Shown: positions 11,647 through 31,280 of the stretch, piece by piece
Numbering within the stretch: the first letter of the stretch is position 1
Layout: each line of letters begins with the position of its first letter
Position numbers and translations under genes: made by a program
The notes under the pieces: model-generated
The model's database searches: none
Seen by the model: only the letters and a program-made list of their open reading frames with translations
What the model was told of the DNA's origin: nothing
Source: Fidelibacterota bacterium
GTDB lineage: Bacteria; Fidelibacterota; Marinisomatia; SCGC-AAA003-L08; D37C17
Assembly: GCA_030748955.1 (NCBI GenBank)
Contig: JASMKZ010000001.1
Location: 1 to 64,000, forward strand
Length of the DNA: 64,000 nt
Direction: 5' to 3'

Positions 11647-11955
11647 TTGAAATATTCGCTCTCCTCATCGGAGTTTTCAAAAACAATGGGAACCTCCAAA
11701 TCCCTGCACTTTGGGGATTTATCATTTAAATATACCAAAAGCTCTAAACCTAAAATGGGACTTATAGTTTCAAGAAGATATGGAAACGCTATAGAGCGTA
11801 ATTTATTTAAGCGTCGCTGCAGATCTGCCTTTAAATCAATTATGGTTGATAATAATATGGGTTGTGTTGTAGTTGTGCGCCCTAAAAAGCCAGGCCTCTC
11901 TTTTAGGGCCATTCAAGAATCTTTCAATTCTATATATGATAAATTCTCTGATTAA
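11647..11955 (+). CDS. rnpA: Ribonuclease P protein component
   Basis: A 102-residue basic protein that assists the RNase P RNA in tRNA 5' maturation. The signature is GLIVSRRYGNAIERN followed by FKRRCRSAF, close to the family RNR motif (RNRxKRxxRE). The C-terminal VVVVRPKKPGLSF segment fits the family. The start is TTG, directly after the rpmH stop. It is a little shorter than typical RnpA (about 115-120 residues). Its last 20 bases overlap yidD. Confidence 0.92.
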   Translation: MKYSLSSSEFSKTMGTSKSLHFGDLSFKYTKSSKPKMGLIVSRRYGNAIERNLFKRRCRSAFKSIMVDNNMGCVVVVRPKKPGLSFRAIQESFNSIYDKFSD

Positions 11956-12163
11956 ACATTTTTTTATCTTATTAATAAAATTATACAAAACCGTGCTTTC
12001 TGGTTTTCTTCCGGATGCCTGTCGTTTTACGCCGTCTTGTTCTAGTTTTGCAATTGGCGCCCTTGAAAAGCATGGCATAATTATGGGGGGCTGGCTCGCT
12101 TTAAAACGAATTGGTAAATGTCATCCGTTTAATAAAACAACAGGTTTTGATCCGGTGCCATGA
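11936..12163 (+). CDS. yidD: Membrane protein insertion efficiency factor YidD
   Basis: About 75 residues. After a hydrophobic N-terminus (FFILLIKLYKTVLSG) comes the diagnostic DACRFTPSCSSFAIGALEKH, matching CRYxPTCSxYxxxAI..hG of YidD, and then a conserved GKCHPF segment. The frame is open further upstream, but the ATG at 11936 gives the normal length and overlaps rnpA by only 20 bases. It overlaps the yidC start by 4 bases (ATGA). It works with YidC at the inner membrane. Confidence 0.92.
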   Translation: MINSLIKHFFILLIKLYKTVLSGFLPDACRFTPSCSSFAIGALEKHGIIMGGWLALKRIGKCHPFNKTTGFDPVP

Positions 12164-13905
12164 ATGATACCTTTCGATATATCCTTGCTGGTGGGTTAAT
12201 ATTTTTAATTATTATTTTACAACCCGTTTATTTAGAATGGCTTGGATATGATACGGGCACAGTGTCTGGGGAAAATTTAGAGGTTATGGAATCTGAAAGT
12301 GTTGTTGCTGCGCGGGGGAAAAAAATCGCCCCATCTTTTGAGTCTGGGTCGGCTGCCATATTAACCAATCAGGGCCCTGTTGAATCATTTATAACTATAG
12401 TTACCCCTCTATATACTGCGACGCTCACCAATAGGTCCGGCGGCAGTTTTACAAATTATTTTTTATCCAGTAAAAATGCTGATGAATTAAAATATATTGG
12501 TGGATATAATGACGGAGGGGTTTTTAATCCCAACATTCCCGTGTCCTTAACAATTAACTCCGAAGAAAATTGTATGCCCTGCCTGGCAGATTATGATGAT
12601 AATGATGATAAATATAATTTTTTTAACCAACCATTTGCCTTGTTAAACTTTTCAAACCAGCAAGATACCATTTATTTAGATTATGGTTCTGTTGAGCTTA
12701 AATATGCTCTACAGGATGTTGATAGTAGAACAATTATTAACAAAACGGTTTCTTTTTCCGCAGATAAATATATTAATGAGCATTATTACGAAATTAATGA
12801 TGAGGTGTTTGAATATTCAAACAATCTGGAGCTCCTCTGGTATGGCGGCTTGCGACCATCAGAAGAAAAGGAAGAGGAAGATGTGGCTTATGGGTCTGGA
12901 ATTATCAGTCAGGCTGGTGAAATTGAAGATGTGCGGTCTACGGGCCCTGATGAAACTATAACCAGGGAAGTCTATAAAGGACAAACTGATTGGGTTGCCG
13001 TTCGTACAAAATATTTTATGTCAGCCATCATAACTGAAAATTCGGGGAAATACGCCACTCTTTCTGGCCATAATATTGACTTTGGACAACGAACACACAC
13101 GCCTCTATATCATGCATCTATTGGTTTTCCTTTGGATGTATCTACAATATCTTCCAGTGTTTATTTGGGGCCCCTTGATGTTGATTATTTATCTCATGCG
13201 GGGGCTTCCCTTGATGCTTCAATGGATTGGGGTTTTGCGCCCATTCGCCCAATTAGCAAGGGCGTTTTATGGGTGTTAAAATTTATGCATAATAAATTGA
13301 ATCTAAATTATGGGCTTGTTCTGCTTTTATTTGCGGTGCTGGTTCGATTAATTACAGGACCTCTTACAAAAAAAAGTTATGAGTCCAGCCAAAATATGCA
13401 AAAAATTCAACCGAAAATAAAAAAAATTCAAGCAAAATATAAAGGGGACCCCCAGCGCCTTAATAAGGAAACAATGGCTTTATATAAAACACATAAAGTA
13501 AATCCGCTTGGCGGATGTCTTCCTATTATGCTTCAAATGCCTTTATTGTGGGCTTTATTTATGGTTTTTCGTACTACAATTGAGTTTCGAGGGGCGCCAT
13601 TTATGTTGTGGATATCTGATCTATCAAAGCCAGACGTGGTATTAGCTCTTCCTTTTTCTATTCCCATTTATGGAGATGGTGTTGCCATATTGCCCCTGGT
13701 AATGGGGGCAACTCTCTTGCTAACTATGCGTATGTCCTCAGCAACAATGGATAAAAGTCAAAAACCCGTTATGTACTTTATGAATGGATTTTTTATTCTC
13801 CTTTTTAATACTTTCCCATCCGGACTTAACCTGTATTATACGGCCTATAATATGCTAAGTTTTTTCCAACAGCGAAGTATTAAAAATAAGCTTGCTAATC
13901 AATAG
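12160..13905 (+). CDS. yidC: Membrane protein insertase YidC
   Basis: A 581-residue inner-membrane insertase. There is an N-terminal anchor (about residues 7-25), a large periplasmic domain (about 60-355), then the conserved insertase core with transmembrane helices from about residue 375. The cytoplasmic hairpin reads QKIQPKIKKIQAKYKGDPQR, and NPLGGCLPIMLQMPLLWALF is the family signature. The large periplasmic domain is the Gram-negative form. The gene overlaps yidD and lies 15 bases upstream of mnmE. Confidence 0.96.
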   Translation: MNDTFRYILAGGLIFLIIILQPVYLEWLGYDTGTVSGENLEVMESESVVAARGKKIAPSFESGSAAILTNQGPVESFITIVTPLYTATLTNRSGGSFTNYFLSSKNADELKYIGGYNDGGVFNPNIPVSLTINSEENCMPCLADYDDNDDKYNFFNQPFALLNFSNQQDTIYLDYGSVELKYALQDVDSRTIINKTVSFSADKYINEHYYEINDEVFEYSNNLELLWYGGLRPSEEKEEEDVAYGSGIISQAGEIEDVRSTGPDETITREVYKGQTDWVAVRTKYFMSAIITENSGKYATLSGHNIDFGQRTHTPLYHASIGFPLDVSTISSSVYLGPLDVDYLSHAGASLDASMDWGFAPIRPISKGVLWVLKFMHNKLNLNYGLVLLLFAVLVRLITGPLTKKSYESSQNMQKIQPKIKKIQAKYKGDPQRLNKETMALYKTHKVNPLGGCLPIMLQMPLLWALFMVFRTTIEFRGAPFMLWISDLSKPDVVLALPFSIPIYGDGVAILPLVMGATLLLTMRMSSATMDKSQKPVMYFMNGFFILLFNTFPSGLNLYYTAYNMLSFFQQRSIKNKLANQ

Positions 13906-13920
13906 TTTATTGCAAGTGAA

Positions 13921-15267
13921 ATGCTTCCCTATGATCAAGAAAACATTGTAGCTATTGCCACCCCCCCTGGCATTGGGGCCCTTGCCGTAGTGAGGCTGTC
14001 TGGAAGGGATTTAAAACCTTTATATAAAAGATTTACCCATCAACTACCCAAAAACAGGTTTGCATTATTTACAAAGCTTTATCACCCTATAAACAATATA
14101 ATTCTCGATGAGGTTGTTGCAACCTATTTTAAATCTCCTGCAAGCTATACCGGTGAAGACATAATAGAAATATCCTGCCATGGCGGTGCTGCTGTAAAAA
14201 ATTCTATTTTACAGGCCGCTATTGATGGTGGCGCAAGACTGGCTAGGCCTGGGGAGTTTTCATATCGTTCTTTTTTAAATGGAAAAATGGACCTGCTTCA
14301 GGCTGAGGCTGTTTCTGCTTTAATTTCTTCTAAAACATCCCAATCTGCCAAGCTAAGTCTTTGCCATCTAGAGGGAAAGGTTTCCACATTGCTTGGTGAT
14401 ATAAAATCTAGGGTAATAGATGTTCTCTCAATCATTGAAAATGAATTGAATTTTTCAGAAGATGAAATAAGCACCACCTCTTATTCGTCTATTCGTTTAA
14501 TAATTGAAGATGTCCAGTCTCAAATAGCCAAAATTATTAATTCTTCTATAATTGGGAAAAAAATATTTTCGGGTATTCGAATTATAATTTTGGGACGACC
14601 AAATACTGGAAAATCTAGTTTATTTAACGCAATATTGGGAGAAAACAGGGCTATAACCTCGCCTGTGGCCGGTACTACCAGAGACACTGTTGAGTCTTGG
14701 TTTGAGCTAGAGGGTGTTCCTGTGTGTTTGGTTGATACTGCTGGCATTTGGGAGTATGAGGGGCCGCTGGACGCCCTTGGGGTGGAAAAAACCATATCTG
14801 AAATGAAGCGGGCTGATTTGTTTATTATTGTGGATGATAAAAACCCCAACCATATTTTAAATGAACAATTTGAAGGCAAATATCAACAACACCATATTTT
14901 GGTTAAATCAAAGTCTGATTTGTCCAATTCCTCACCGACAAAAGAAACAAATATTATTTATACATCTTCAAAAGAAGGTCTTGGTATAAACAAGTTATTA
15001 ACATCTTTTTCCACATATATTTTAAATAATATTAATCTTTCAGACAGAGAGTCTGGCTTTATGATATCCCAGCGACAGCGGGGGTTGTTAGAAAATTCTT
15101 TGTTGTGTTTAGATGAGGCCATTGTACAGTTGGATTTGGGAATTGAAACGGATATCATAGCATCTACGCTTAATGGTTTTGTTGTTGCTATCAAAGATAT
15201 AGTTGGTGAAATACCTAATAAAGACGTTGTACAAAATATTTTTAATAATTTTTGTGTTGGTAAATGA
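13921..15267 (+). CDS. mnmE: tRNA uridine-5-carboxymethylaminomethyl modification GTPase
   Basis: A 448-residue GTPase that with MnmG modifies U34 of certain tRNAs. The N-terminal tetrahydrofolate-binding domain contains [20 protein letters not shown]. The G domain has GRPNTGKSS (G1), TTRDT (G2), DTAG (G3), and a degenerate G4 (KSKSD). The C-terminal CVGK is the catalytic FCxGK motif. Its stop overlaps the mnmG start by 4 bases, consistent with coupled production of the two partner subunits. Confidence 0.96.
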
Positions 15268-17078
15268 ATAATAAATCTATTGTGATTGTCGGCGGGGGCC
15301 ATGCGGGGGTAGAGGCAGCATTTGCTGTGGCAAATCTAGGAATAAAGGCCGTTTTGGTTACAATGGATATAAATGCGGTTGGCAGAATGAGCTGCAATCC
15401 GGCAATTGGTGGGCTTGGCAAGGGACACCTGGTAAAAGAAATTGATGCCCTTGGTGGGATTATGGGGAGAGCTTCAGATGCTTGCGGGCTTCAGTTTAAA
15501 GTGTTAAATAAATCTAAAGGAAGGGCGGTTTGGTCGCCTAGGGCCCAAATTGATAAGCATAAGTATGCCATATATATTCAGAAGGCTTTTTCTTCCCATA
15601 AAAATATATCTATTATTCAGGATGAGGTTGTTGATTTCTCTGTTGATAATGGGCGGGTTTCTAGTGTTGTTTTGCGAAAGGGTGGGACATTAAAAACCGG
15701 CGCCCTAATTGTTTGTTCTGGAACCTTTTTAAATGGATTAATACATATTGGAAATGAAAATTTTTCTGCTGGAAGATTTGGAGAACGCGCCGTTGTTGGT
15801 CTGTCAAATGTTCTTGTAAATAAAGGGTTTAGTGTTTCTCGTCTAAAAACAGGTACACCGCCACGCCTGCTATCATCATCAATTAAATGGGATGGCTTGA
15901 CACTATCTGGGGGCGATGAAAACCCCATCCCATTTTCAATTCTCACAGAGCGCCCATTTAAGCCAAAAAACATTCCCTGTCATATTGTTGATACTAACCC
16001 CAAGGTTCATAAAATATTATCTGATAATTTACAAAAATCTGCGATGTATTCCGGAAGTGTTGGCGGTGTTGGTCCCCGCTATTGTCCAAGTATTGAGGAT
16101 AAAATTGTTAGATTTGGTGACAGGGATAAACATCAGCTTTTTTTGGAACCAGAATGGATAAATTCAAATCAAATTTATGTAAATGGGTTTTCTACTAGCA
16201 TGCCAAAACATGTTCAGGAAATTGCTCTCCGTAGCATATCCGGGCTTAAAGATGTTCGGCTGGTTCGCCCTGGCTATGCAATTGAATACGATTACTTTCC
16301 GTCCTCCCAATTAAAAAGCACCCTTGAAACAAAAATGTTTGATGGACTGTTTTTCGCCGGACAAATGAATGGCACATCTGGATATGAGGAGGCTGCAGCC
16401 CAGGGCTTAATAGCTGGCGCTAACGCCGGACTCAAGCTATTAAATAAGGAGCCTCTTGTTTTGGGCAGAGATCAGGCTTATATCGGGGTGCTAATTGACG
16501 ACTTGATTACTAAAGATATAAATGAACCATATAGGATGTTTACATCTAGCGCTGAATATCGCCTTTCACTGCGGGCGGATAGTGCATCAATTCGACTAAC
16601 AGAAAAGGCCTATAAATTAGGGTTGGTCCAGGAAAATCAATATGCGCTTTTTAAGACTTATAAGAAGTCGGTTGATGATATTATAAAATATTGTAAAAAA
16701 ACCCGAATAGAGGTTGATGGTGAGTCGCTTTTGCTTTCAGATTATATTAAGCGCCCAAAAAAATATTTAATAAACTGCAGTGAAGGACGAAAGCTTTTAA
16801 ATGATTGTTTAATTGATTCAGCTTTCACCGCAGAGACAGAAATTAAATATGAGGGTTATGTAAAAATTGAAAATTCTAGGGTGAAAAATTTAAGGAAAAT
16901 GGAGGATGTTGTCATTCCCCGCCTTTTCGACTATTCGTTGCTCCCCAATCTTTCTTCTGAATCAAAAGAAAAGCTGGGGCGCATCAGGCCAGAAACGCTG
17001 GGGCAGGCTTCCAGGGTGGCGGGGGTTCGCCCTGCCGATATTGGTGTGCTCGCCATTTTTCTTAAATCTTTTTCTTAG
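15264..17078 (+). CDS. mnmG: tRNA uridine-5-carboxymethylaminomethyl modification enzyme MnmG
   Basis: A 604-residue FAD enzyme (GidA), partner of MnmE. The N-terminal FAD motif is [12 protein letters not shown], followed by the family signature [42 protein letters not shown] marks the second dinucleotide region, and the C-terminus ([15 protein letters not shown]-like) is the helical tRNA/MnmE-binding tail. The gene ends 1 base before a perfect parS site, an arrangement known from other genomes where mnmG sits next to the partition locus. Confidence 0.96.
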
Positions 17079-17079
17079 T

Positions 17080-17095
17080 TGTTTCACGTGAAACA
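17080..17095. promoter_or_regulatory. parS centromere-like site (exact 16-bp consensus)
   Basis: TGTTTCACGTGAAACA is a perfect 16-bp palindrome identical to the widely conserved bacterial chromosomal parS site bound by ParB, which loads SMC and drives origin segregation. It lies 1 base after the mnmG stop and before the likely mfd start. I see no other copy in the window, and no parA or parB gene. An exact 16-mer match by chance in 64 kb is very unlikely. Confidence 0.92.
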
Positions 17096-17108
17096 ATTGT
17101 CTCCTATA

Positions 17109-20081
17109 ATGTCTATTGCTGATATGTCTACCTCTGTTGGGGTTGGTGGGGGGGTGTGTGTTTCTGGTTTTCATCCCGACTTTTTATTGCCACTAATAGA
17201 CGCAATTGATAATAGGTTGTTTATTACAATACATGATGACGTTTTTGCTTCATCTGTCAAATATTTGTCTGCTCTGTGGGATAATGACTCTTTTGTTTTT
17301 GTGTCGGACTTAGGGATAAACGCAGGTGTTCCGGCGGGGTTTGCCTCCTCTGAAGACCGATTTAATTTGAGGGCAAGAGAGGTTTTAGCTGAAGGCCTGG
17401 GTCCAATAAAAGTCATAGTTTCTTCAGAGGGTGGGGTTTCGATGCCAATACTTGGCTGTGGTATTGATAATAGGTTGGTTTTTGATCTTGGCGTCTCATT
17501 TGAAGAGTGTTATGGCTTTTTGGTTTCCGAAAACTATGTGTTGTCAGATTTTGTGGCTATGCCGGGAGAATTTTCTACTCGCGGCGGAATAATTGATGTC
17601 TTTCCTTTTTCGTCTTATTGCCCTTATAGGATTAATTTTTTAGATGAATTCCCAATAGTTTTTCGCTTTAATGTTGACAATCAATTAACAACTGAGCGTG
17701 TAAACAGCTTTGTTCTATCGTCTGTTTCAAAAAATAAACCCCTGGCGCTGAAAGATGTTTCTCTAAAAGAATTTTTGTCAGTGGCTCTAAATTCTTCTGG
17801 AGAGCTTATAATTGGTAGCCCTAATAAAATTCTAAAAAAGATACAACTACAAACCTTTACCTATAGACAGTTTTGTGCTGTTTATAAAAACAATTGTTCA
17901 TCTATGGATGCAGTGGATGGCCTTTCTTCTGTTGGTTTGGCTGATAAAAATAATAATATTTTTATTCCTTTATGGTTTATAGACAAAAAGCCTATGCAAG
18001 AAAAGGGGGGTGAAAGACCCGCTCCTTTAGGGTTGGGAAAAATTTGTCGGGGCGATTATCTTGTTCATAGAGACCATGGAGTTGGGGTTTGTATTGGTCT
18101 GGTTTTAAAGGAGGGGGGGGCGTCTGCTCAAGAGCTTCTTTCAATAAAATACAATGATGGGGGGGTAATTTCAACAGATATTGGATCTCTAGATCTAATT
18201 GCATTTTTTGCCCCTGCTGGCACAGAAGGGGTGGTGTTAGATTCTCTTTCCAAAAAGGGAAGTTGGGCGCGTAAAAAGTTATCTGCTAAAAAGCGGGCTG
18301 AAGAAGTAATGCAACACTTGTTAAGTCTTTATGTGAAAAGGCGTGGCTTATCGCGCCCCGCCTTTTCACAAGACCTGTCGCTGGAGGGGCCTTTTTTGGC
18401 GTCCTTTTCGTTTGAAGATACCCCTGACCAGATTAGTGCTTGGAATAATATATCAGATGATCTTTCTGCAAGTTCGCCCATGGATAGGCTGTTGTGCGGG
18501 GATGTTGGTTTTGGCAAAACAGAGCTTGCAATTAGGGCAGCTTTCAGGGTGGTGGTGGGTGGCAAAAGGGTGGTTGTGCTTTCTCCAACAACCATACTTG
18601 CAAATCAGTTGTGCTCATCGTTTTCCGCTCGCCTTGGGCCGGAGGCCATTTCTGTTGATATGGTTTCTCGTTTTAGGTCTCAAAAGGATTTGGGGGTGGT
18701 TAAAAAAAATATAATTGAAAATAATAATGATGTTTTAATTGGTACACATGTGGTTTTAAATGATGATTTATATTTAAAAAACATAGGTTTATTAATAGTA
18801 GATGAAGAACACCGGTTTGGCGTAAAACATAAAGAAAGTATAAGACAATTTAAAAGCAGTGTTGATGTTCTTTCAATGTCGGCAACGCCAATTCCTCGAT
18901 CTATGAATCTTGCGCTATCGGGTATTTATTCTATTTCTATGCTGCAAACACCCCCGAGGTTGCGGCTTCCAATAATAACTCGGGTTGAGTATTATGGTGA
19001 TTTAACTATAGTGGCGGCTATTAGTTTTGAGGTAGAAAGGGGGGGTCAGGTTTATTTTGTTCATAATGATATTGTCTCTATAAAAAATATTACACATAAA
19101 TTGCAGGGTTTATTTTCAAAACATGTTGTGCGCTTTATTCATGGCCAAGAGCCCCCTAAAAATATTGAGCAAAAAATGGGTGATTTTGTTTCTGGCAAAA
19201 CGGATATTTTGGTGTGTACATCTATTATTGAGTCTGGTATTGATGTTTCTTCCGCAAACTGTATAATTATTAACAATGCGCACCTCTTTGGCCTTTCTCA
19301 GCTTTACCAAATGAGGGGACGCGTCGGCAGGGGACCCCAACAAGCCTATGCATACCTTCTTGTTCCACGGGGGGTTTCTTTGTCGGAAAAGGCCTTTAAA
19401 AGAATTAAGTCTATTGAGGAGAATACTAGCCTTGGGGCGGGGTATAATGTTTCAATGAAAGACATGGAAATACGGGGGTCCGGCTCTCTTTTTGGTTATA
19501 AGCAGTCTGGTGGTGGCGGTTCTGTTGGTTATGAAATGTACACGCGCATGATTCAGCGGGCGCTACATGATTCTGGTGGGCTGGGGTTGGATTTTCGAAT
19601 TCTTCCTGAAGATGTTGTTATAGAGCTTTATAAAAAGCGGTTTATTCCTGAAGAATATATTGCTCTAGAAGGTGTTCGGATGTCTGTGTATAGGGATCTG
19701 GCTGTTGCCACAACAGAGGAGGCCTTAGATGGCGTTTTATATAATTTAGTTAACCGGTTTGGGCCTGCTCCTGATTCTGTAATAAATATTATAAATGAAT
19801 CTCGCCTAAGATTGGTTGCGTCTAGGGCTGGAATATGCTCTGTGGTGTTGCGACCCTGTGGCATTTTGTGTTCTGTTAAAAATAGGAGGGGGGATTTATT
19901 TGCTTCAGCTGTCCTCGATTATGTAGACAAATTGTTAAGAGAGGGGGGAATTAATTATCATATAATGCCCAACAACAACGATGTTTTGGGCCTATGTATT
20001 CATTTGGATAAAAATGAAGATAGTTATGCGTTCTTTTCTCGTTTTTTTGGTAAGTTTGATGCTTTGGTAAAGGTTAATTAA
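17109..20081 (+). CDS. mfd: Transcription-repair coupling factor Mfd
   Basis: About 990 residues. An SF2 translocase that displaces stalled RNA polymerase and recruits UvrA. After a UvrB-like N-terminal region (FSTRGGIIDVFPFS), the RNAP-interacting CarD-like domain begins at RGDYLVHRDHGVGVCIGL. The motor has CGDVGFGKTELAIRAAF (Walker A), DEEHRFGVKHKE (DEEH box), SATPIPRSMNLALSG and QMRGRVGRG, followed by the D7/TRCF domain. The frame is open from a TTG at 17079, but that would place parS inside the gene; the ATG at 17109 is preferred. It is shorter than E. coli Mfd (1148), the shortfall lying in the N-terminal half. The coding strand is strongly T/G-rich, with several G7-G8 tracts. Confidence 0.94.
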   Translation: MSIADMSTSVGVGGGVCVSGFHPDFLLPLIDAIDNRLFITIHDDVFASSVKYLSALWDNDSFVFVSDLGINAGVPAGFASSEDRFNLRAREVLAEGLGPIKVIVSSEGGVSMPILGCGIDNRLVFDLGVSFEECYGFLVSENYVLSDFVAMPGEFSTRGGIIDVFPFSSYCPYRINFLDEFPIVFRFNVDNQLTTERVNSFVLSSVSKNKPLALKDVSLKEFLSVALNSSGELIIGSPNKILKKIQLQTFTYRQFCAVYKNNCSSMDAVDGLSSVGLADKNNNIFIPLWFIDKKPMQEKGGERPAPLGLGKICRGDYLVHRDHGVGVCIGLVLKEGGASAQELLSIKYNDGGVISTDIGSLDLIAFFAPAGTEGVVLDSLSKKGSWARKKLSAKKRAEEVMQHLLSLYVKRRGLSRPAFSQDLSLEGPFLASFSFEDTPDQISAWNNISDDLSASSPMDRLLCGDVGFGKTELAIRAAFRVVVGGKRVVVLSPTTILANQLCSSFSARLGPEAISVDMVSRFRSQKDLGVVKKNIIENNNDVLIGTHVVLNDDLYLKNIGLLIVDEEHRFGVKHKESIRQFKSSVDVLSMSATPIPRSMNLALSGIYSISMLQTPPRLRLPIITRVEYYGDLTIVAAISFEVERGGQVYFVHNDIVSIKNITHKLQGLFSKHVVRFIHGQEPPKNIEQKMGDFVSGKTDILVCTSIIESGIDVSSANCIIINNAHLFGLSQLYQMRGRVGRGPQQAYAYLLVPRGVSLSEKAFKRIKSIEENTSLGAGYNVSMKDMEIRGSGSLFGYKQSGGGGSVGYEMYTRMIQRALHDSGGLGLDFRILPEDVVIELYKKRFIPEEYIALEGVRMSVYRDLAVATTEEALDGVLYNLVNRFGPAPDSVINIINESRLRLVASRAGICSVVLRPCGILCSVKNRRGDLFASAVLDYVDKLLREGGINYHIMPNNNDVLGLCIHLDKNEDSYAFFSRFFGKFDALVKVN

Positions 20082-20086
20082 ATAGG

Positions 20087-21775
20087 ATGAAATTGATGTT
20101 AAAAATATTGCTGTTGTGTTTTGCCTCTTTGTTGTGTGCCGCCAAGGGAACGGTTTTAACAATTAATGATGAAGAGTATTCTTTGCATGATTTTTATTCC
20201 CGGTATCCTAAAAAACAGTGGGAGCGTGCTGATAGCCTGAAAAAGGACAAAATGTTTACAGATTTTATTAAAAGAGAGTTGTGCATTTTTGAGGCAAAAA
20301 AGGTGGGCTTACAAAACGATCCAGATATTGCTGTTAAAATAAGAGATCGGTCTTTACAAATATTGGTGAATGAAAGCTATGAACATTTTGTTGCTACTCC
20401 ATTAATTTCTCCATCTGAATTAGATGCAGCAAGACAAAATGCAAAAAAAGAACTGTTTGCAGGTCATATATTAATTGGTCATAGTGGGGCATATCTTGCC
20501 AATCCTCCTCAAAGAACGATTGACGAGGCCCTTCTTTTATCCCAACAGATTAAAGATGAGTTTGAGGCGGGTGAGAGCTTTAGTGTCTTGGCAAAAAAAT
20601 ATTCTGACGATCCTAGCGCTAAAAACAATAGTGGTTCCCTTGGTTGGGTTCAGTGGGGTAGAACTGTTCCTGAATTTCAGCGGGTTCTTTTTGGGTTGGG
20701 TGTGGATGTACTTTCTCCTCCTGTTTTAACGGATTTTGGTTATCACCTTATTTTAGTTTCTGATATAAGATCTTCTGAGCTTCAATATATGTCAGACGAT
20801 GCCTATGAAAGCTATGTTATAAATGTTTCTAAAAATAGCGTGCGGGAGCAGTTGCGAGAGGCGGCTGTTAATTATGATGCTAAAAAAATTGACGACTATG
20901 GGGTGTTGTTTAATCTTGCTGGTGTTGAGTTGGTGTTAGACGCCTTTAATCGCAATCAAAAAGATGGGTTTTTGTCTGAATCTGGCAACAAGGATTCTGC
21001 CTCCCTTCTTAAGGGGGTTGGGGGCGTGCTTTGTGTTTATAATGGCAGGGGGTATGGTCCGGGGTGGTTTTCTACAAGGCTTAAAAGGATTTCGTCTGCC
21101 AGGCAGCCCCGCCTTGATTCGGCTGATAAAATTATTTCTGCTTTGAAAACAATCATTTTACAAGACATTGCAATAAATGAGGGTTTTGCTGAGGGGGTTG
21201 AAAATATTTTTACCTTTAAGTATAAAAAAAATGAGGTGGTGTCTGACCTGTTATACGATGCATACTTAAAGCTCTTAGTAAATTCTGCAAAAAAACCAGA
21301 CTCTCTTGATGTTTTTGATTATTATGAAAATAACAAGTTTATTAAGTATATGGGGGATGAAAGGGTTGTTGTTAGAGAAATAAAAGTTTCTTCCAGGAGC
21401 GTTGCAGACAGTTTGGTTCGGCTTCTTGATTCTGGTGTAAACTTTGCTTTGTTAGCCCAACAAAACAGTTCTACTAATCCTGGCGATGGCGGCTTATATG
21501 GTCCTTTTTCAAGGAGAGATAGTGGGTCCCTTTTTGATGCGGCTTCTTTGTTGGGCGCGGGAGAATATAGTTCGGTATTGCCCACATCAAAAAATAGTTT
21601 TTCAATAATTCAACTTGTTGAGCCCGCTTCTGCTACGCCAATAGATGTTGATCGTGTTTATGTACAAATCGAATCTTTGTTAATAAAAGAGGGGCAGGAT
21701 GAGGCTAAGTCTGTAGGGGTTGACGGCTTGTTGAACAAATATACTATTATTAAAAATAGCGACTTATTGTTTTAA
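20087..21775 (+). CDS. Exported parvulin-type peptidyl-prolyl isomerase, two PpiC-like domains
   Basis: A 562-residue periplasmic protein with an N-terminal signal peptide (LLLCFASLLCAAKG). After a helical SurA/PrsA-type region comes a first rotamase domain (about residues 125-225) with the motif FSVLAKKYSDDPSAKNNSGSLGWVQWG and a characteristic FGYHLILV. A second, less typical domain (about residues 430-540) has FALLAQQNSSTNPGDGGLYGPF. The plan is that of PrsA/SurA/PpiD-type foldases for outer-membrane or secreted proteins. A second parvulin gene follows after 3 bases. The name cannot be narrowed beyond the family. Confidence 0.85.
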   Translation: MKLMLKILLLCFASLLCAAKGTVLTINDEEYSLHDFYSRYPKKQWERADSLKKDKMFTDFIKRELCIFEAKKVGLQNDPDIAVKIRDRSLQILVNESYEHFVATPLISPSELDAARQNAKKELFAGHILIGHSGAYLANPPQRTIDEALLLSQQIKDEFEAGESFSVLAKKYSDDPSAKNNSGSLGWVQWGRTVPEFQRVLFGLGVDVLSPPVLTDFGYHLILVSDIRSSELQYMSDDAYESYVINVSKNSVREQLREAAVNYDAKKIDDYGVLFNLAGVELVLDAFNRNQKDGFLSESGNKDSASLLKGVGGVLCVYNGRGYGPGWFSTRLKRISSARQPRLDSADKIISALKTIILQDIAINEGFAEGVENIFTFKYKKNEVVSDLLYDAYLKLLVNSAKKPDSLDVFDYYENNKFIKYMGDERVVVREIKVSSRSVADSLVRLLDSGVNFALLAQQNSSTNPGDGGLYGPFSRRDSGSLFDAASLLGAGEYSSVLPTSKNSFSIIQLVEPASATPIDVDRVYVQIESLLIKEGQDEAKSVGVDGLLNKYTIIKNSDLLF

Positions 21776-21778
21776 TTA

Positions 21779-23050
21779 ATGTTTTTCAATAGATTTTTTG
21801 TTGTTGTTTTGGTTGGGGTCTTTTTTTCTCAAGGAAAAGTAGATGGTGTTGCCGCCATTGTGGGAAGCAATGTTGTTCTGCATAGTGACGTGCTACAACA
21901 ATCTCAGTTTTTTGCCATAGAGCAGCAGGTGGATCCATCAAAAAATCCTTATCTTTTTGAAGAGATATATGTTTCTACATTAAACAAGATAATCAATCAA
22001 TATGCTATATTAAGTGTTGCAGAGAAAGATACTAATATTATCATTTCCAACGATGAGGTTGATAGGGCTCTTAATCAACAAATAGATGATTTTATTTTAA
22101 AGGCGGGTTCTGAAAAATTGTTTTTGGAAATGGCTGGAATGTCAATGAGACAAATAAAGGCAGATTATTGGCAAGATATTCGAGATATGATGATGATCGA
22201 AAAATATCAGTATTCTAAAATTCAAAATGTTGATGTGAGTCGTGTAGAGGTATTACATTTTTTTGATTCTTTTAAAGATTCTATTCCTCGCCATCCTGAA
22301 AAATATAGTTTCAGTATAATAGAGGTACCTTTTTCTCCGGGCGATGCTTCTACGACAAAGGCTTATGATTTTCTCAATATACTAAAGGATGATATTCAAA
22401 TAAAGGGGGTTTCATTTGATTCTCTTGCTCAGCTGTATTCCCACGATCCTGGTTCGGCACCCATGGGGGGGCGTCTTGGATTTACCTATAGGGGGGCGCT
22501 GGTTAAAGAATATGAGGAAGTTTCTTATGCTATGGAAATTGGTGAAATTAGTGACCCAATTAAGTCTGATTTTGGATATCATTTAATAAAATTAATCGAT
22601 AAAAAAGGTGAAAAAATATCTACTCAACATATTCTTAGAACAATAGAATTTTCTGAAGATGACAAAACAAACGCATACGATGCTATTTATGATATTTATA
22701 CTCACACAAATAACAATTTTCCAGCATTTGATTCCCTGTCAAATATATTTTCAACAAAGTATAAAAATGGGTCTGGCAAATATATTGATTTCCCCACCTC
22801 GCGTATTCCAGAACATGTGTTTGTTGTGTTGAAAAATATGGATGTCGGTGAACTGTCTATGCCTATTGAAATGAGTGGTGGATATTTTTTAGTTTATTAT
22901 TATGACTACCAAAAAGAGTTTATTCCTGATGTTAATAATTCTTGGGATTTAATCTATAAATATGCAAAACAAAAAAAACATAATTCTATAATTAGTAATT
23001 TGGTAAAAAATATTAAAACTAACATTTATATAAATATTTTCAACAATTAG
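21779..23050 (+). CDS. surA: SurA-like periplasmic chaperone/peptidyl-prolyl isomerase
   Basis: A 423-residue exported protein. The signal peptide (about residues 1-20) is followed by VDGVAAIVGSNVVLHSDV, the typical opening of SurA (IDxVVAVVNDDVILxSEL). A parvulin domain occupies about residues 175-285, with FDSLAQLYSHDPGSAPMGGR and SDFGYHLIKLID. A second partial domain follows up to about residue 385. SurA carries unfolded outer-membrane proteins to the BAM complex. It is the last gene before the 260-bp AT-rich gap. SurA is the best name, but a PrsA-like paralogue is possible given the neighbouring related gene. Confidence 0.82.
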   Translation: MFFNRFFVVVLVGVFFSQGKVDGVAAIVGSNVVLHSDVLQQSQFFAIEQQVDPSKNPYLFEEIYVSTLNKIINQYAILSVAEKDTNIIISNDEVDRALNQQIDDFILKAGSEKLFLEMAGMSMRQIKADYWQDIRDMMMIEKYQYSKIQNVDVSRVEVLHFFDSFKDSIPRHPEKYSFSIIEVPFSPGDASTTKAYDFLNILKDDIQIKGVSFDSLAQLYSHDPGSAPMGGRLGFTYRGALVKEYEEVSYAMEIGEISDPIKSDFGYHLIKLIDKKGEKISTQHILRTIEFSEDDKTNAYDAIYDIYTHTNNNFPAFDSLSNIFSTKYKNGSGKYIDFPTSRIPEHVFVVLKNMDVGELSMPIEMSGGYFLVYYYDYQKEFIPDVNNSWDLIYKYAKQKKHNSIISNLVKNIKTNIYINIFNN

Positions 23051-23310
23051 TGTTTATAAATTAATTTTAAACTATGTTGTTAACACTGTTATTAACATAA
23101 AGAAATAGTTTAAGTATTTTTTATATGTGTTATATTTATAGTTTTAAAAAAAATCTATTTTTTTATATTTAAACATATCAACTTATATATAATACTTAAA
23201 TTAATATACTAAACTATGAATATATATATACCTTTTAAAAAAATGGATTTATTAGAAATAAACTTGTATAATAAAAAAGTTATAAATTCAACCAAAGAAA
23301 TAGGATAAAT
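23051..23310. other. AT-rich intergenic gap; candidate replication or skew-switch locus
   Basis: These 260 bp between surA and dnaN are the longest non-coding stretch in the window and are very AT-rich, with runs such as TATATATATA and TTTTTTTATATTTAAA. A loose inverted repeat (11-3-11, 9 of 11 pairs) sits at 23074-23098, including TTATTAACA, a 7/9 match to the DnaA box TTATCCACA. I find no perfect DnaA box by eye. A 30-codon frame (23216-23308) ends 2 bases before dnaN but has no recognisable content. AGGA lies just upstream of the dnaN start. Strand composition flips across this gap. It may be oriC, another replication element, or just the dnaN promoter. Confidence 0.5.
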
Positions 23311-24426
23311 ATGAAATTTACACTTGATAAAAACGCGTTTTTAAAAAATTTACAACTATTATCTAAGGCCATACCTCAAAGATCAACACTGCCAATAATT
23401 AGTAGTGCTTTATTCATAGTTAAGGATGAAATTTTAAGTATGCGGGCGACGGATTTAGAAATATCTATAAATCTAAAATCTAAAATAGAAGGTGGTGAAG
23501 ATGGATGTGTTGCTATTCCTCTAGGAAAATTATTAGAAATAACGAGTGCTATGCCGGAAAAGAATATAGATTTTAGCGTTTCTGACATAGGTAAAATGAA
23601 TATTTCTTGTAATTCTGGGCGCTATACTATAATGGGGCAACCGTCAGAAGAATTTCCTTCAGAACAGGTTGTTGAAAATAGTAAAAGATTACAGGTTTCT
23701 TCAGGAGAGTTGAAAGATATGATTATTAATACATCTTATGCAGCCAGCAAAGATGATTTAAAACCAGTGCTTCAAGGAGTCTTATTTCAAATACAAAACG
23801 ATGGTATTGTTTCTGTTGCAACAGATGGACATAGATTAGTAAAATTAGAAAAGAAAAAACTTCATTCTATAGATTATATTGGCAATATTGTTGTTCCTAT
23901 TAAATTTTTAGCCTTACTTACAACACAATTAACCGGCGATGGAGATATTTCAATGTTAATTGGTGACAATCATATTCAAGTACAACTAGAAGATGTTACC
24001 ATAACTACACGAATAATTAAAGATCCATATCCAGACTATGAAGGCGTTATTCCAAAGAATAATACAAAGACATTAATAATAAATAAGAATAATTTCACAG
24101 AAGCAATAAAGAGAGTTTCTATTTTTTCTAATAAATCAAGCAAACAGGTAGCGCTAGAACTTTCCGAAAGCAGCATGACAATAACAACCGAAGATCCGGA
24201 AAATATAACAACAGGAAAAGAAATATTAGACTGTGATTATGATGGAGAGCCCATGACAATTGGTTATAATGCCTTTTATTTGAAAGAGGTACTACAACAC
24301 CAACAATCAGAAGAAATAAAAATAATGCTAAATTCACCATTAAATGCAGGACTATTTCTTCCAATAGATCAAAATGATAATGACAATAAAACCACCCTTC
24401 TAATGCCAATCAGACTAAACGATTAA
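23311..24426 (+). CDS. dnaN: DNA polymerase III beta subunit (sliding clamp)
   Basis: A 371-residue ring-forming clamp that tethers replicative polymerase to DNA. Three clamp domains are evident: the first opens MKFTLDKNAFLKNLQLLSKAIP, the central domain carries YAASKDDLKPVLQGVLFQ and VATDGHRLVKLE, and the third ends in TTLLMPIRLND, the position of the family MPMRL tail. The ATG has AGGA at good spacing. dnaA, which normally precedes dnaN, is absent; the AT-rich gap is in its place. Confidence 0.96.
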   Translation: MKFTLDKNAFLKNLQLLSKAIPQRSTLPIISSALFIVKDEILSMRATDLEISINLKSKIEGGEDGCVAIPLGKLLEITSAMPEKNIDFSVSDIGKMNISCNSGRYTIMGQPSEEFPSEQVVENSKRLQVSSGELKDMIINTSYAASKDDLKPVLQGVLFQIQNDGIVSVATDGHRLVKLEKKKLHSIDYIGNIVVPIKFLALLTTQLTGDGDISMLIGDNHIQVQLEDVTITTRIIKDPYPDYEGVIPKNNTKTLIINKNNFTEAIKRVSIFSNKSSKQVALELSESSMTITTEDPENITTGKEILDCDYDGEPMTIGYNAFYLKEVLQHQQSEEIKIMLNSPLNAGLFLPIDQNDNDNKTTLLMPIRLND

Positions 24427-24438
24427 TTTATTGTTCCA

Positions 24439-26684
<2,246 letters not shown>

Positions 26685-26699
26685 GAAAATAGGCTAATT

Positions 26700-29177
26700 A
26701 TGTCAGAAGAAATTATAAAAGGAACAGTTTTAGACAGAGACATTGTTAAAGAGATGTCTGAATCATATCTTAATTATTCGATGTCGGTCATTGTTAGTCG
26801 GGCGCTACCAGATGTGCGCGATGGATTAAAACCAGTACATCGTAGAGTGTTATATGGCACGTCAGACCTGGGCGCGTCTTGGAATCGAAGCTATAAGAAG
26901 TGTGCTAGAATAGTTGGCGAGGTATTAGGCAAATACCATCCCCATGGCGACACATCTGTTTATGACTCCCTGGTTAGAATGGCACAACCCTGGTCGTTGA
27001 GATATCCACTAATGGACGGACAGGGCAATTTTGGATCAATTGATGGTGATAGTGCAGCAGCAATGCGGTATACTGAAGCCAAAATGCACAGAATATCATC
27101 TGAAATTTTGCGAGACCTGGAAAAGAAAACAGTAGATTTTCAACCCAACTTTGATGACACCCTAGAGGAGCCTGTTGTTCTACCCGCAATAATTCCAAAC
27201 CTGCTTATGAATGGTGCCGACGGAATTGCTGTTGGTATGGCAACAAAAATTCCGCCCCATCATTTAGGAGAACTTTTATCAGGATTAAATGCCCTTTTAG
27301 ATAATCCAGAGATTACAATTGAAGAGCTTTTCACAGATCACATTAAGGGTCCAGATTTTCCAACAGGCGGGTTAATTTTTGGCATTGATGGAATAAAAAG
27401 TGCCTATACCACCGGTCGTGGCAAGGTAATAATGCGAGCAAAAACATTAATAGAAGAGCTCCCCAGCGGGAAAGAGGTAATAATTATTAATGAAATTCCC
27501 TTTCAGGTAAATAAGGCGAACCTAGTAGAGAAAATAGCCCACTTGGTAAGAGATAAAAAAGTAGAGGGCATATCTGATTTGCGGGATGAGTCTGACAAAG
27601 ATGGAATAAGAGTTGTTATTGAATGCAAAAGAGACGCTATCGCATCCATTGTGTTAAATAATTTATTTAAATATTCTCAACTACAAGATAGTTTTGGCGT
27701 TATTATGTTAGCGCTCGTAGATGGAATTCCAAAGGTTATGAACCTTAAAACGATGCTGCAACACTTTCTCGATTTCAGGCGGGAAGTAATTATAAAAAGA
27801 ACCCGCTTTGAATTAAGTGAAGCCGAAGATCGCGCCCATATATTAGAAGGTTTGAAAATTGCACAAGAAAATATTGATGAAATAATCAAATTGATAAAAG
27901 GTTCTTCCGACCCAGATGAAGCCAAGCAGGGGCTTATACAAAAATTTTCTCTATCAGAGCGACAGGCAAAAGCAATTTTGGATATGCGCCTACAAAGACT
28001 AACCTCGCTAGAAGTAAATAAAATAGTAAAAGAATATGGTGAATTAATAGAGACAATTAAAGGCTTAAAGGAAATTTTAGAAAGCCACGAACTACAAAGC
28101 AACATAATTAAAGAAGAATTTACAGAGGTTGGTGAAAGGTATAATGATAAACGCCGGTCAGAAATAATTCCAATATCTGGAGATTTATCTATTGAGGACA
28201 TAATAGCAGATGAAGATATGGTGGTAACCATCACCCATAATGGCTATATCAAAAGGCTACCCTCTGCCACCTGGAAAACACAACGTCGTGGAGGAAGGGG
28301 AATGAAGGGAGCCCACACCAAGGACGACGATTTTATTGAACATCTATTTATTGCATCCACACACAATTACATGCTCTTTTTTACAGATAGAGGCAAATGT
28401 TATTGGATGAAGGTACATGAAATTCCGCCAGGAATGCGCACGTCTCAAGGGCGGGCAATTGTCAATCTTATTGGTTGTGAAGCTGGAGAAAAAGTAAAAG
28501 CATTTGTATCAGTTAAAGAGTTTAACGATACAGATTTTATAGTCATGGCAACCCGGAATGGAATTATTAAAAAAACGGCCCTATCTATGTACAGCCGACC
28601 AAGGAAAGGCGGTATATATGCTATTGAAATTAGAGACAATGATGAATTGATCCAAGCAAAAGTGTCTCATGGGTGCCAAGATATTATCTTAGCGACATTT
28701 AGTGGAAAATCCATACGATTTAATGAAAATGATGTAAGAGGAACTGGCAGAAAAACCATGGGGGTAAGGGGTATTCGTCTTGGCACAAAAGACGACTATG
28801 TAATAGGCATGTTGATTGTAAGGCGAGAGGGTTCTGTTATGGTGGTGACCAACAAGGGTTATGGTAAGCGAAGCGACTTATCAGAATATAGAACTCAAAA
28901 TCGCGGTGGAAAGGGAGTTATTACCATCAAAACAACAGATAAGGTGGGTAATCTTATTGGAATAATGGAAGCTATTGATGAAGACGATATAATGCTAATC
29001 ACTGACAGAGGAATTATGATTAGGCAACCAGTAGGCAATATTCGAACAATTGGCAGAAATACTCAGGGAGTTCGTTTAGCTAAACTAGATGATAAAACAT
29101 ATATTACCTCAGCAACACGGGTGTTAAAAGAGGAAGAAAACAACGAAGGGGAAGAAACGCCTGAACCCGAAGAATGA
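26700..29177 (+). CDS. gyrA: DNA gyrase subunit A
   Basis: An 825-residue breakage-reunion subunit. The catalytic Tyr lies in [10 protein letters not shown], and the quinolone-determining region reads [19 protein letters not shown], with Thr where E. coli has Ser83 and Asp at position 87. Thr there is natural in several genera, so reduced quinolone sensitivity is possible but unproven. The C-terminal beta-pinwheel carries the GyrA box QRRGGRG, which supports gyrase over topoisomerase IV. The tail is acidic. Its TGA overlaps an ATG at 29174 that probably starts yggS. Confidence 0.97.
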
Positions 29178-29874
29178 CCCCCTTTCAAAGCTTAATAATA
29201 CACTGGAAATCCTAAATTCCAGAATTAACAATGCTGCGATTAAATCTAATCGAACATCCAACGACATCACGCTTGTTGCGGTAACAAAATCCTTCCCACC
29301 CAGCATTTGGGAAACGGCCATAAATCACAATCTTACCACCCTGGCAGAAAACAGAATTCAAGAAACAAAACAAAAACTTAAAAAATTTAAGGATAGAGAT
29401 AAAATAGTCCTCCATTTTATTGGGCGACTTCAAAGCAACAAGGCAAGAAAAGCTGGGCAGATGTTTGACGTAATTCAAACAATAGATTCAATTAAATTGG
29501 CAAAGCGGTTAAATATCATTTCAGCAGAAACAAATAAATTACAGAAAATATATTTACAGGTAAATATTGGTAATGATCCTCAAAAACAAGGATTTTCAAT
29601 AAAAGAAATTATTGATTCAGCAAAAGAAGCTTCAGAACTAGATAGCTTAGAAATAGGTGGTATTATGACAATGCTCCCCCAGGGAATACCAAAAACCACA
29701 TTGAGAGATTATTATAAAAAAACATGTGAAATTAAAAATGAAATTAACGAATCAGTTAATAGTAGTTGTAATAATCTTTCTATGGGAATGAGTAATGATT
29801 TTGAGATTGCTATAGAAGAAGGAGCCACACATATCCGCATTGGAACGGCCCTATTTGGAGCAAGGCCACAGTGA
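29174..29874 (+). CDS. yggS: YggS/PROSC-family PLP-binding protein, apparent frameshift near the start
   Basis: A PLP homeostasis protein of about 233 residues. The family motifs are LVAVTK (PLP Lys), [50 protein letters not shown] and the final FGARPQ. The family frame is open from 29176 but has no normal start codon there; the first in-frame ATG (29461) would cut off the PLP lysine. The ATG at 29174 overlaps the gyrA stop as ATGA, yet reads out of frame across a run of five C (29178-29182). One extra C would give a perfect 233-residue protein starting MTPLSKLNN. This is either a one-base deletion, a sequence error, or an unusual start. Confidence 0.75.
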
Positions 29875-30308
29875 AGCTGCGCGTTATAACCAAACAACTA
29901 TCCAATAAACTCCCATTAGAAAACAAATTACAGAAACGTTCCAATATTAGCCATAATAACTTTGAAAATATTTATAAGCTTCTTCACTCAAAAAAAATAA
30001 CCGAACTACATGTTACAGATGCAACATATTCCAATAAAATTCCGAAAGGGGAAATAATTCAAGTTAAAGACCACATCAACAAAACAGGATCAAATATATT
30101 AATTGGAAGACAGACATTGTTGAATATAAATTTTATTGATATGACGGAGACCTATTCCTTTGAAAAAAATGCTATTATTACTGCCTGTTGTGGAGAAGCG
30201 TTAAATAAAAACCTTGACTATCCTAGCCATTTTCTCTGTCATATCACCACCCTCGCCAAGGCCCTCAAAATCCCCACAATTAAGGGCTTTTTGTATAACA
30301 CCCCATAA
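29871..30308 (+). CDS. Shortened purine-nucleoside-phosphorylase-like protein
   Basis: A 145-residue protein. Its middle (about residues 58-100) reads [15 protein letters not shown] followed by NFIDMTETY, clearly like the DHINLTGxNPLxG and RFxDMSxAYD segments of family 2 purine nucleoside phosphorylases. The phosphate-binding N-terminus and the substrate-binding C-terminal half of the normal 270-residue enzyme are missing. The remaining ends do not match, so this is either a remnant or a repurposed small protein. It starts at GTG overlapping the yggS stop and ends directly before the asparaginase ATG, so the frame is kept under selection or is recently decayed. No catalytic role is claimed. 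Confidence 0.55.
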
Positions 30309-31280
30309 ATGAACCTGTATTGCAATGTAAAACGAGGCGAAAACATTGAAAGTAGACACGAAGTATATGCTCTTGCAATTGATGAAGATGGCAAAACAAT
30401 ATTTTCAACGGGAAATCCAGACTATTCTACCTGTATTAGATCATCGCTAAAACCATTTCAAGCATCGGCAGCCATACTAGAAGGCGCAACAGAATTAGCC
30501 GGATTTACTAATGAAGAAATTGCACTCATGTGTGCATCACATAACGGCGAAGAAATTCATGTAAAAACAGCAAGAGGGATGATAAATAAATTAGAATTAA
30601 ACGTTTCACATTTGAAATGTGGCAGCCACCCCCCCTATGATGTTGGTGCAAGAAATAGGGCGCGGAAAACAGGGCCAACTCCTTTTCACAACAATTGCTC
30701 TGGCAAGCATTCTGGCATGTTATCTCTAGCCATCAAACTAGGAGCGAAAACCGACAACTATGTTTCATATAATCATCCAGTTCAACAAAAAATTTTTGAG
30801 CAACTTAAGAGATTAACGGGAAAAAATAATTTTCCCTATGGCGTAGATGGTTGTAGTGCACCAACCCCCTTTTTAACCCTAAAGGAAATTGCAAAACTTT
30901 TCCAAGCCCTAGGACTCAACAAATTTCCTGAGCTCACAACCGCATATAACGCTATGGCCAACCACCCATATTTAACGGCGGGAAAAAATAGATTTGACAC
31001 AGATTTTAATAACGCTATAAATGGCAGGGGAATAACAAAGGTGGGTGGAGAAGCCATTCGTGGAATGGTTATTAAAACAGCAAAATATGGCGTTGTTGGA
31101 ATAGCACAGAAAATATTGGATGGAAATCAGCGAGCCAACGAAACGGCAATTATGACCATTTTAGATCATCTCGACCTATTGAAAATAGCCGAAAATGAAA
31201 AGCTAGAAAAATATAAAACAAAAAAATTATTTAATCACAACAAAGTACATATTGGTGATATAAAGGGGATAATTATTTAA
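30309..31280 (+). CDS. Asparaginase II-family (Rhizobium AnsA-type) amidohydrolase
   Basis: A 323-residue protein of the thermolabile asparaginase II family (PF06089), unrelated to the classic EcA I/II type. The opening RHEVYALAIDEDGK with RSSLKPFQASAAI is the family signature, followed by CASHNGEEIHV, FHNNCSGKHSGML with conserved Cys and Ser, and VDGCSAPTPFLTL. It hydrolyses L-asparagine to aspartate and ammonia in the characterised members; activity here is inferred. It follows the PNP-like gene with no spacer. Confidence 0.85.
   Translation: MNLYCNVKRGENIESRHEVYALAIDEDGKTIFSTGNPDYSTCIRSSLKPFQASAAILEGATELAGFTNEEIALMCASHNGEEIHVKTARGMINKLELNVSHLKCGSHPPYDVGARNRARKTGPTPFHNNCSGKHSGMLSLAIKLGAKTDNYVSYNHPVQQKIFEQLKRLTGKNNFPYGVDGCSAPTPFLTLKEIAKLFQALGLNKFPELTTAYNAMANHPYLTAGKNRFDTDFNNAINGRGITKVGGEAIRGMVIKTAKYGVVGIAQKILDGNQRANETAIMTILDHLDLLKIAENEKLEKYKTKKLFNHNKVHIGDIKGIII

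Follow-up and report, generated by a model that had tools for sequence, protein, structure and literature searches.

The window, the whole 64,000-nucleotide stretch that we analyzed, belongs to a Marinimicrobia MAG (1.79 Mb, 355 contigs, 91% complete). Pfam matches revealed that its + strand carries, in order, rnpA, yidC, mnmE, mnmG, mfd, two PpiC-type rotamases, dnaN, gyrB, and gyrA. A near-identical locus (mnmG 95%) occurs in Candidatus Marinimicrobia, and two remoter loci occur in Candidatus Neomarinimicrobiota. A preliminary description had placed a parS site between mnmG and mfd, and this placement was correct: mnmG ends one base before the site, and mfd is the next gene. The features are as follows.

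11647 to 15267, + strand: rnpA, yidC, and mnmE, the conserved origin-region cluster upstream of mnmG (Pfam; synteny in relatives).
15264 to 17078, + strand: mnmG (gidA), whose stop codon ends one base ahead of parS (Pfam GIDA, 7e-149).
17079 to 20081, + strand: mfd ORF, with its start at TTG 17079 or GTG 17088 (probably, inside parS), else at ATG 17109 (Pfam TRCF/DEAD/CarD_TRCF_RID; start comparison in relatives).
17080 to 17095, no strand: parS, the exact 16-bp consensus palindrome TGTTTCACGTGAAACA (consensus match; kept at mnmG ends in relatives).
23051 to 23310, no strand: probable oriC, the 260 bp that separate the second ppiC from dnaN, 86% AT, with only TTATTAACA-like drifted boxes here (DnaA-box enrichment in relatives; AT-skew flip at 4-fold sites).
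23311 to 24426, + strand: dnaN, an origin-region marker (Pfam DNA_pol3_beta).
24717 to 29177, + strand: gyrB and gyrA, origin-region genes downstream of dnaN (Pfam; synteny).

The dnaA gene lies on the same contig (G000:C111:114859-115347), about 98 kb from parS. In other families it is found closely upstream of the yidC cluster, so the position of dnaA varies between lineages.

Scanning the window revealed that TGTTTCACGTGAAACA at 17080-17095 matches the parS consensus, in the form used in PMC7383237, at 16 of 16 positions with no mismatches. Even with up to three mismatches allowed, this palindrome was the sole match in the window; shuffled sequences averaged 0.18. The exact match reported in the preliminary description thus held up. 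Nor is the motif scattered through the genome: the assembly contains a single exact site, the one in the origin region, and the runner-up carries two mismatches. Since the MAG is fragmented and 91% complete, additional parS copies could sit in the missing part.

We examined whether the site is kept in relatives. With up to one mismatch allowed, parS was present in 48 of 60 relatives, while a reversed-pattern control gave 0 of 60. In each of these 48, at least one copy lies no more than 60 bp from an end of mnmG: the 3′ end alone in 37, the 5′ end alone in 4, and both ends in 7. Three genomes carry an extra nearby site, and G011 has one weaker additional site on another contig. Of the 12 relatives scored as lacking parS, G022 and G050 do carry a site at one end of mnmG that is masked or has two mismatches; in several others, the assembly does not contain a complete mnmG; and G039 has no parS at up to three mismatches around its truncated mnmG. 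In a sample of the phylum, sites were found in 50 of 60 genomes, often paired about 1.85-1.9 kb apart, and the majority of the sample loci that we read were at an mnmG end.

An unusual arrangement was found in G103 and G076, which belong to one genus. Here a close pair of parS copies, about 100-170 bp apart (L220 10335-10448, L221 10665-10853), lies beside mfd and about 4.5-4.7 kb from mnmG, with other genes intervening. In G103, the neighbor on the other side of the pair looks like dapF.

Could such a palindrome be a chance match, or a relic without present function? Because it lies in or beside coding sequence, partial constraint on its letters is possible. However, both letters and position are kept in 48 of 60 relatives with no control hits, the overlapping reading frame changes, and ParB was found in all 60 relatives, making this explanation extremely improbable. 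Equally remote is the idea that the word is kept for the residues it encodes, at the beginning of Mfd or the end of MnmG, rather than as a DNA site. In the window's lineage, the frame over parS does read LFHVKQ at the start of mfd. Across relatives, however, the letters of the site are constant and the frame is variable: the site lies over the C-terminal end of mnmG in some families and over the mfd start in others. The word is also found at the 5′ end of mnmG, and G103 retains it even though mnmG is about 4.7 kb away. These frame changes largely refute a coding constraint.

The position of the site relative to the mfd start was compared in relatives. In the window's genome, mfd has four early in-frame starts: TTG 17079, GTG 17088, TTG 17097, and ATG 17109. 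G002 and G006 are among the relatives that keep just the first two, both within the parS word, and lack ATG 17109. Since the early starts of several relatives all fall inside parS, an overlap between the site and the start of mfd is probable in the window's lineage. The 30-bp intergenic junction described earlier would therefore require ATG 17109 to be the mfd start, and the starts of relatives, lying in parS, argue for overlap instead. An extended proposal is that the Marinimicrobia centromere, a single parS or an mnmG-flanking pair, supplies the mfd start-codon region in the window's lineage and so physically couples ParB loading to Mfd production; we regard this as unlikely.

A profile search of the genome for ParB_N gave one match (1.5e-31), on contig C300. 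This protein matched ParB/Spo0J/Noc structures at up to 3e-48. Directly ahead of parB is a 258-aa ORF that we assigned as ParA-like by its KGGVGKTT motif, and reading of the ORFs gave the order parA-like, parB, and an M23-type peptidase, followed by bactofilin and ATP synthase genes. ParBs from the same genus are 68-97% identical to the C300 ParB, so contamination does not account for contig C300. A parA homolog adjoins parB in each of the 30 relatives' loci that we read, and M23 and bactofilin homologs come next in nearly all. The parB of G006 (L057) contains one in-frame internal TAA, which may be an assembly error or reflect a broken gene.

The order mnmG-rsmG-parAB occurs in other bacteria. 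We found no rsmG/gidB in this genome, and its only ParB_N protein is the one on C300, in agreement with the earlier statement that no parAB lies near parS. Where distances could be measured, parB and parS were about 373 kb apart in the one-contig genome G025 and 57-59 kb apart on a shared contig in G008 and G016. That parAB and parS lie apart is thus characteristic of the whole lineage and not peculiar to this genome.

We aligned the ParB sequences to assign residues in Caulobacter numbering. R173, N178, and G201 are kept in 31 of 31 sequences (the query plus 30 loci, one of which is the query's own). Noc proteins have Q173 and R201 (PMC7383237). By R173 and G201, the C300 protein is predicted to be a ParB of the parS type, not the Noc type. 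Position 204, occupied in other ParBs and in Noc by an Arg that contacts parS (PMC7383237), is Leu in the ParB of this genus (L049-L054), Lys in G002, and Val in three other relatives; we count Leu204 (Lys in G002) as a departure against a parS-binding reading. The expectation of a ParB encoded in the genome was borne out.

These data also bear on whether the site, instead of being a centromere, is Noc-like or is used by ParB mainly to regulate mfd. The site overlaps the probable mfd start, and there is a precedent in another bacterium, where ParB at a single parS can influence a promoter close to it (reviewed in PMC7022226). Against a mainly regulatory or Noc-like role, the genome has one ParB_N protein, with a ParA-like gene adjoining it, and the R173/G201 residues are those of ParB. 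We therefore consider such a role very improbable, although parS and ParB may have a side effect on mfd.

Is the site close to the replication origin? In the gaps between ppiC and dnaN of 18 genomes or loci (5.5 kb in total), exact TTATCCACA DnaA boxes numbered 14, versus 0.1 in shuffles; with up to one mismatch, there were 40 versus 1.9. The enrichment appears only in the pooled relatives: in the window alone, the count of TTATCCACA was no higher than chance, and its own gap at 23051-23310 has no canonical DnaA box, only drifted forms. At the window's gap, the AT skew at 4-fold sites shifts from -0.45 to +0.25. Most relatives shift in the same direction, and in a few the shift is weak or absent. 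The AT skew at 4-fold sites peaks next to the gap and has faded by about 20 kb in both directions, which makes it an unusually local signal (window 16000-31000). Together, the boxes and the skew mark 23051-23310, just ahead of dnaN, as the probable oriC. The distance from parS to this probable origin is about 6 kb, in line with the origin-proximal location proposed in the preliminary description.

GC skew at 4-fold sites mostly tracks gene strand, both in G045 and in the rest of contig C111. As an origin locator it was rejected: the window and sampled stretches of G025 placed no origin, and in G045 the sign switches with gene strand. In the sampled stretches of G025, which is a single contig, skew was too weak to place an origin independently. 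Thus, of the skew flip near 23 kb in the preliminary description, the part seen in AT skew at 4-fold sites is real, while the GC skew is unclear and mostly a gene-strand effect. The puzzling GC-skew sign arises mostly because GC skew follows gene strand; this effect, together with the ppiC-dnaN gap, largely resolves the concern that the sign spoke against an origin nearby.

Every sequence test that we ran supports parS at 17080-17095 as, very probably, the genuine chromosomal centromere of an ordinary ParABS system. Following known ParABS biology, ParB would be supplied by the unlinked parA-parB-M23-bactofilin-atp cluster on C300, load at the single parS as a CTP-dependent sliding clamp, and spread across the neighboring mnmG, mfd, and oriC DNA. 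ParA would then move ParB, so that segregation begins with the freshly replicated origin, about 6 kb from parS. ParB may additionally load SMC; ScpA is present in the genome. In other bacteria, a single origin-proximal parS suffices for segregation (PMC7022226). The ParABS parts are conventional, the local gene layout is unusual, and nothing mechanistically new is needed. The parS and ParB of Marinimicrobia seem little described in the literature. Our analysis describes how chromosome segregation is encoded in a marine phylum that is largely uncultured: a minimal centromere is fixed beside mnmG and the probable origin, and parAB lies apart, clustered with bactofilin and ATP synthase genes. It also indicates where the oriC of the group probably lies, upstream of dnaN.

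Two known systems were compared. Nucleoid occlusion by Noc-NBS involves a protein whose fold is related to that of ParB. However, the NBS consensus differs from the site found here, and the ParB has R173/G201 rather than Q173/R201; we rejected membership in this class, as the site is not NBS-type and the protein lacks Q173/R201. The chromosomal ParABS systems of Bacillus subtilis (Soj/Spo0J-parS) and Caulobacter (ParAB-parS) have a parS consensus identical to the one here. The genome has this consensus, a ParB_N protein with parS-type HTH residues (Leu at 204 departs), a ParA-like neighbor, and parS near the probable oriC. Its ParB also shares the LGKGL N-terminus and the GERR, ENIQR, and NPIE motifs, it is encoded beside a ParA-like ATPase, and ScpA of the SMC complex is a further likeness. 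The arrangement differs in three respects: there is one parS, whereas most species have several (PMC7022226); parAB lies away from mnmG, in the parAB-M23-bactofilin-atp cluster on another contig; and parS probably overlaps the start of mfd.
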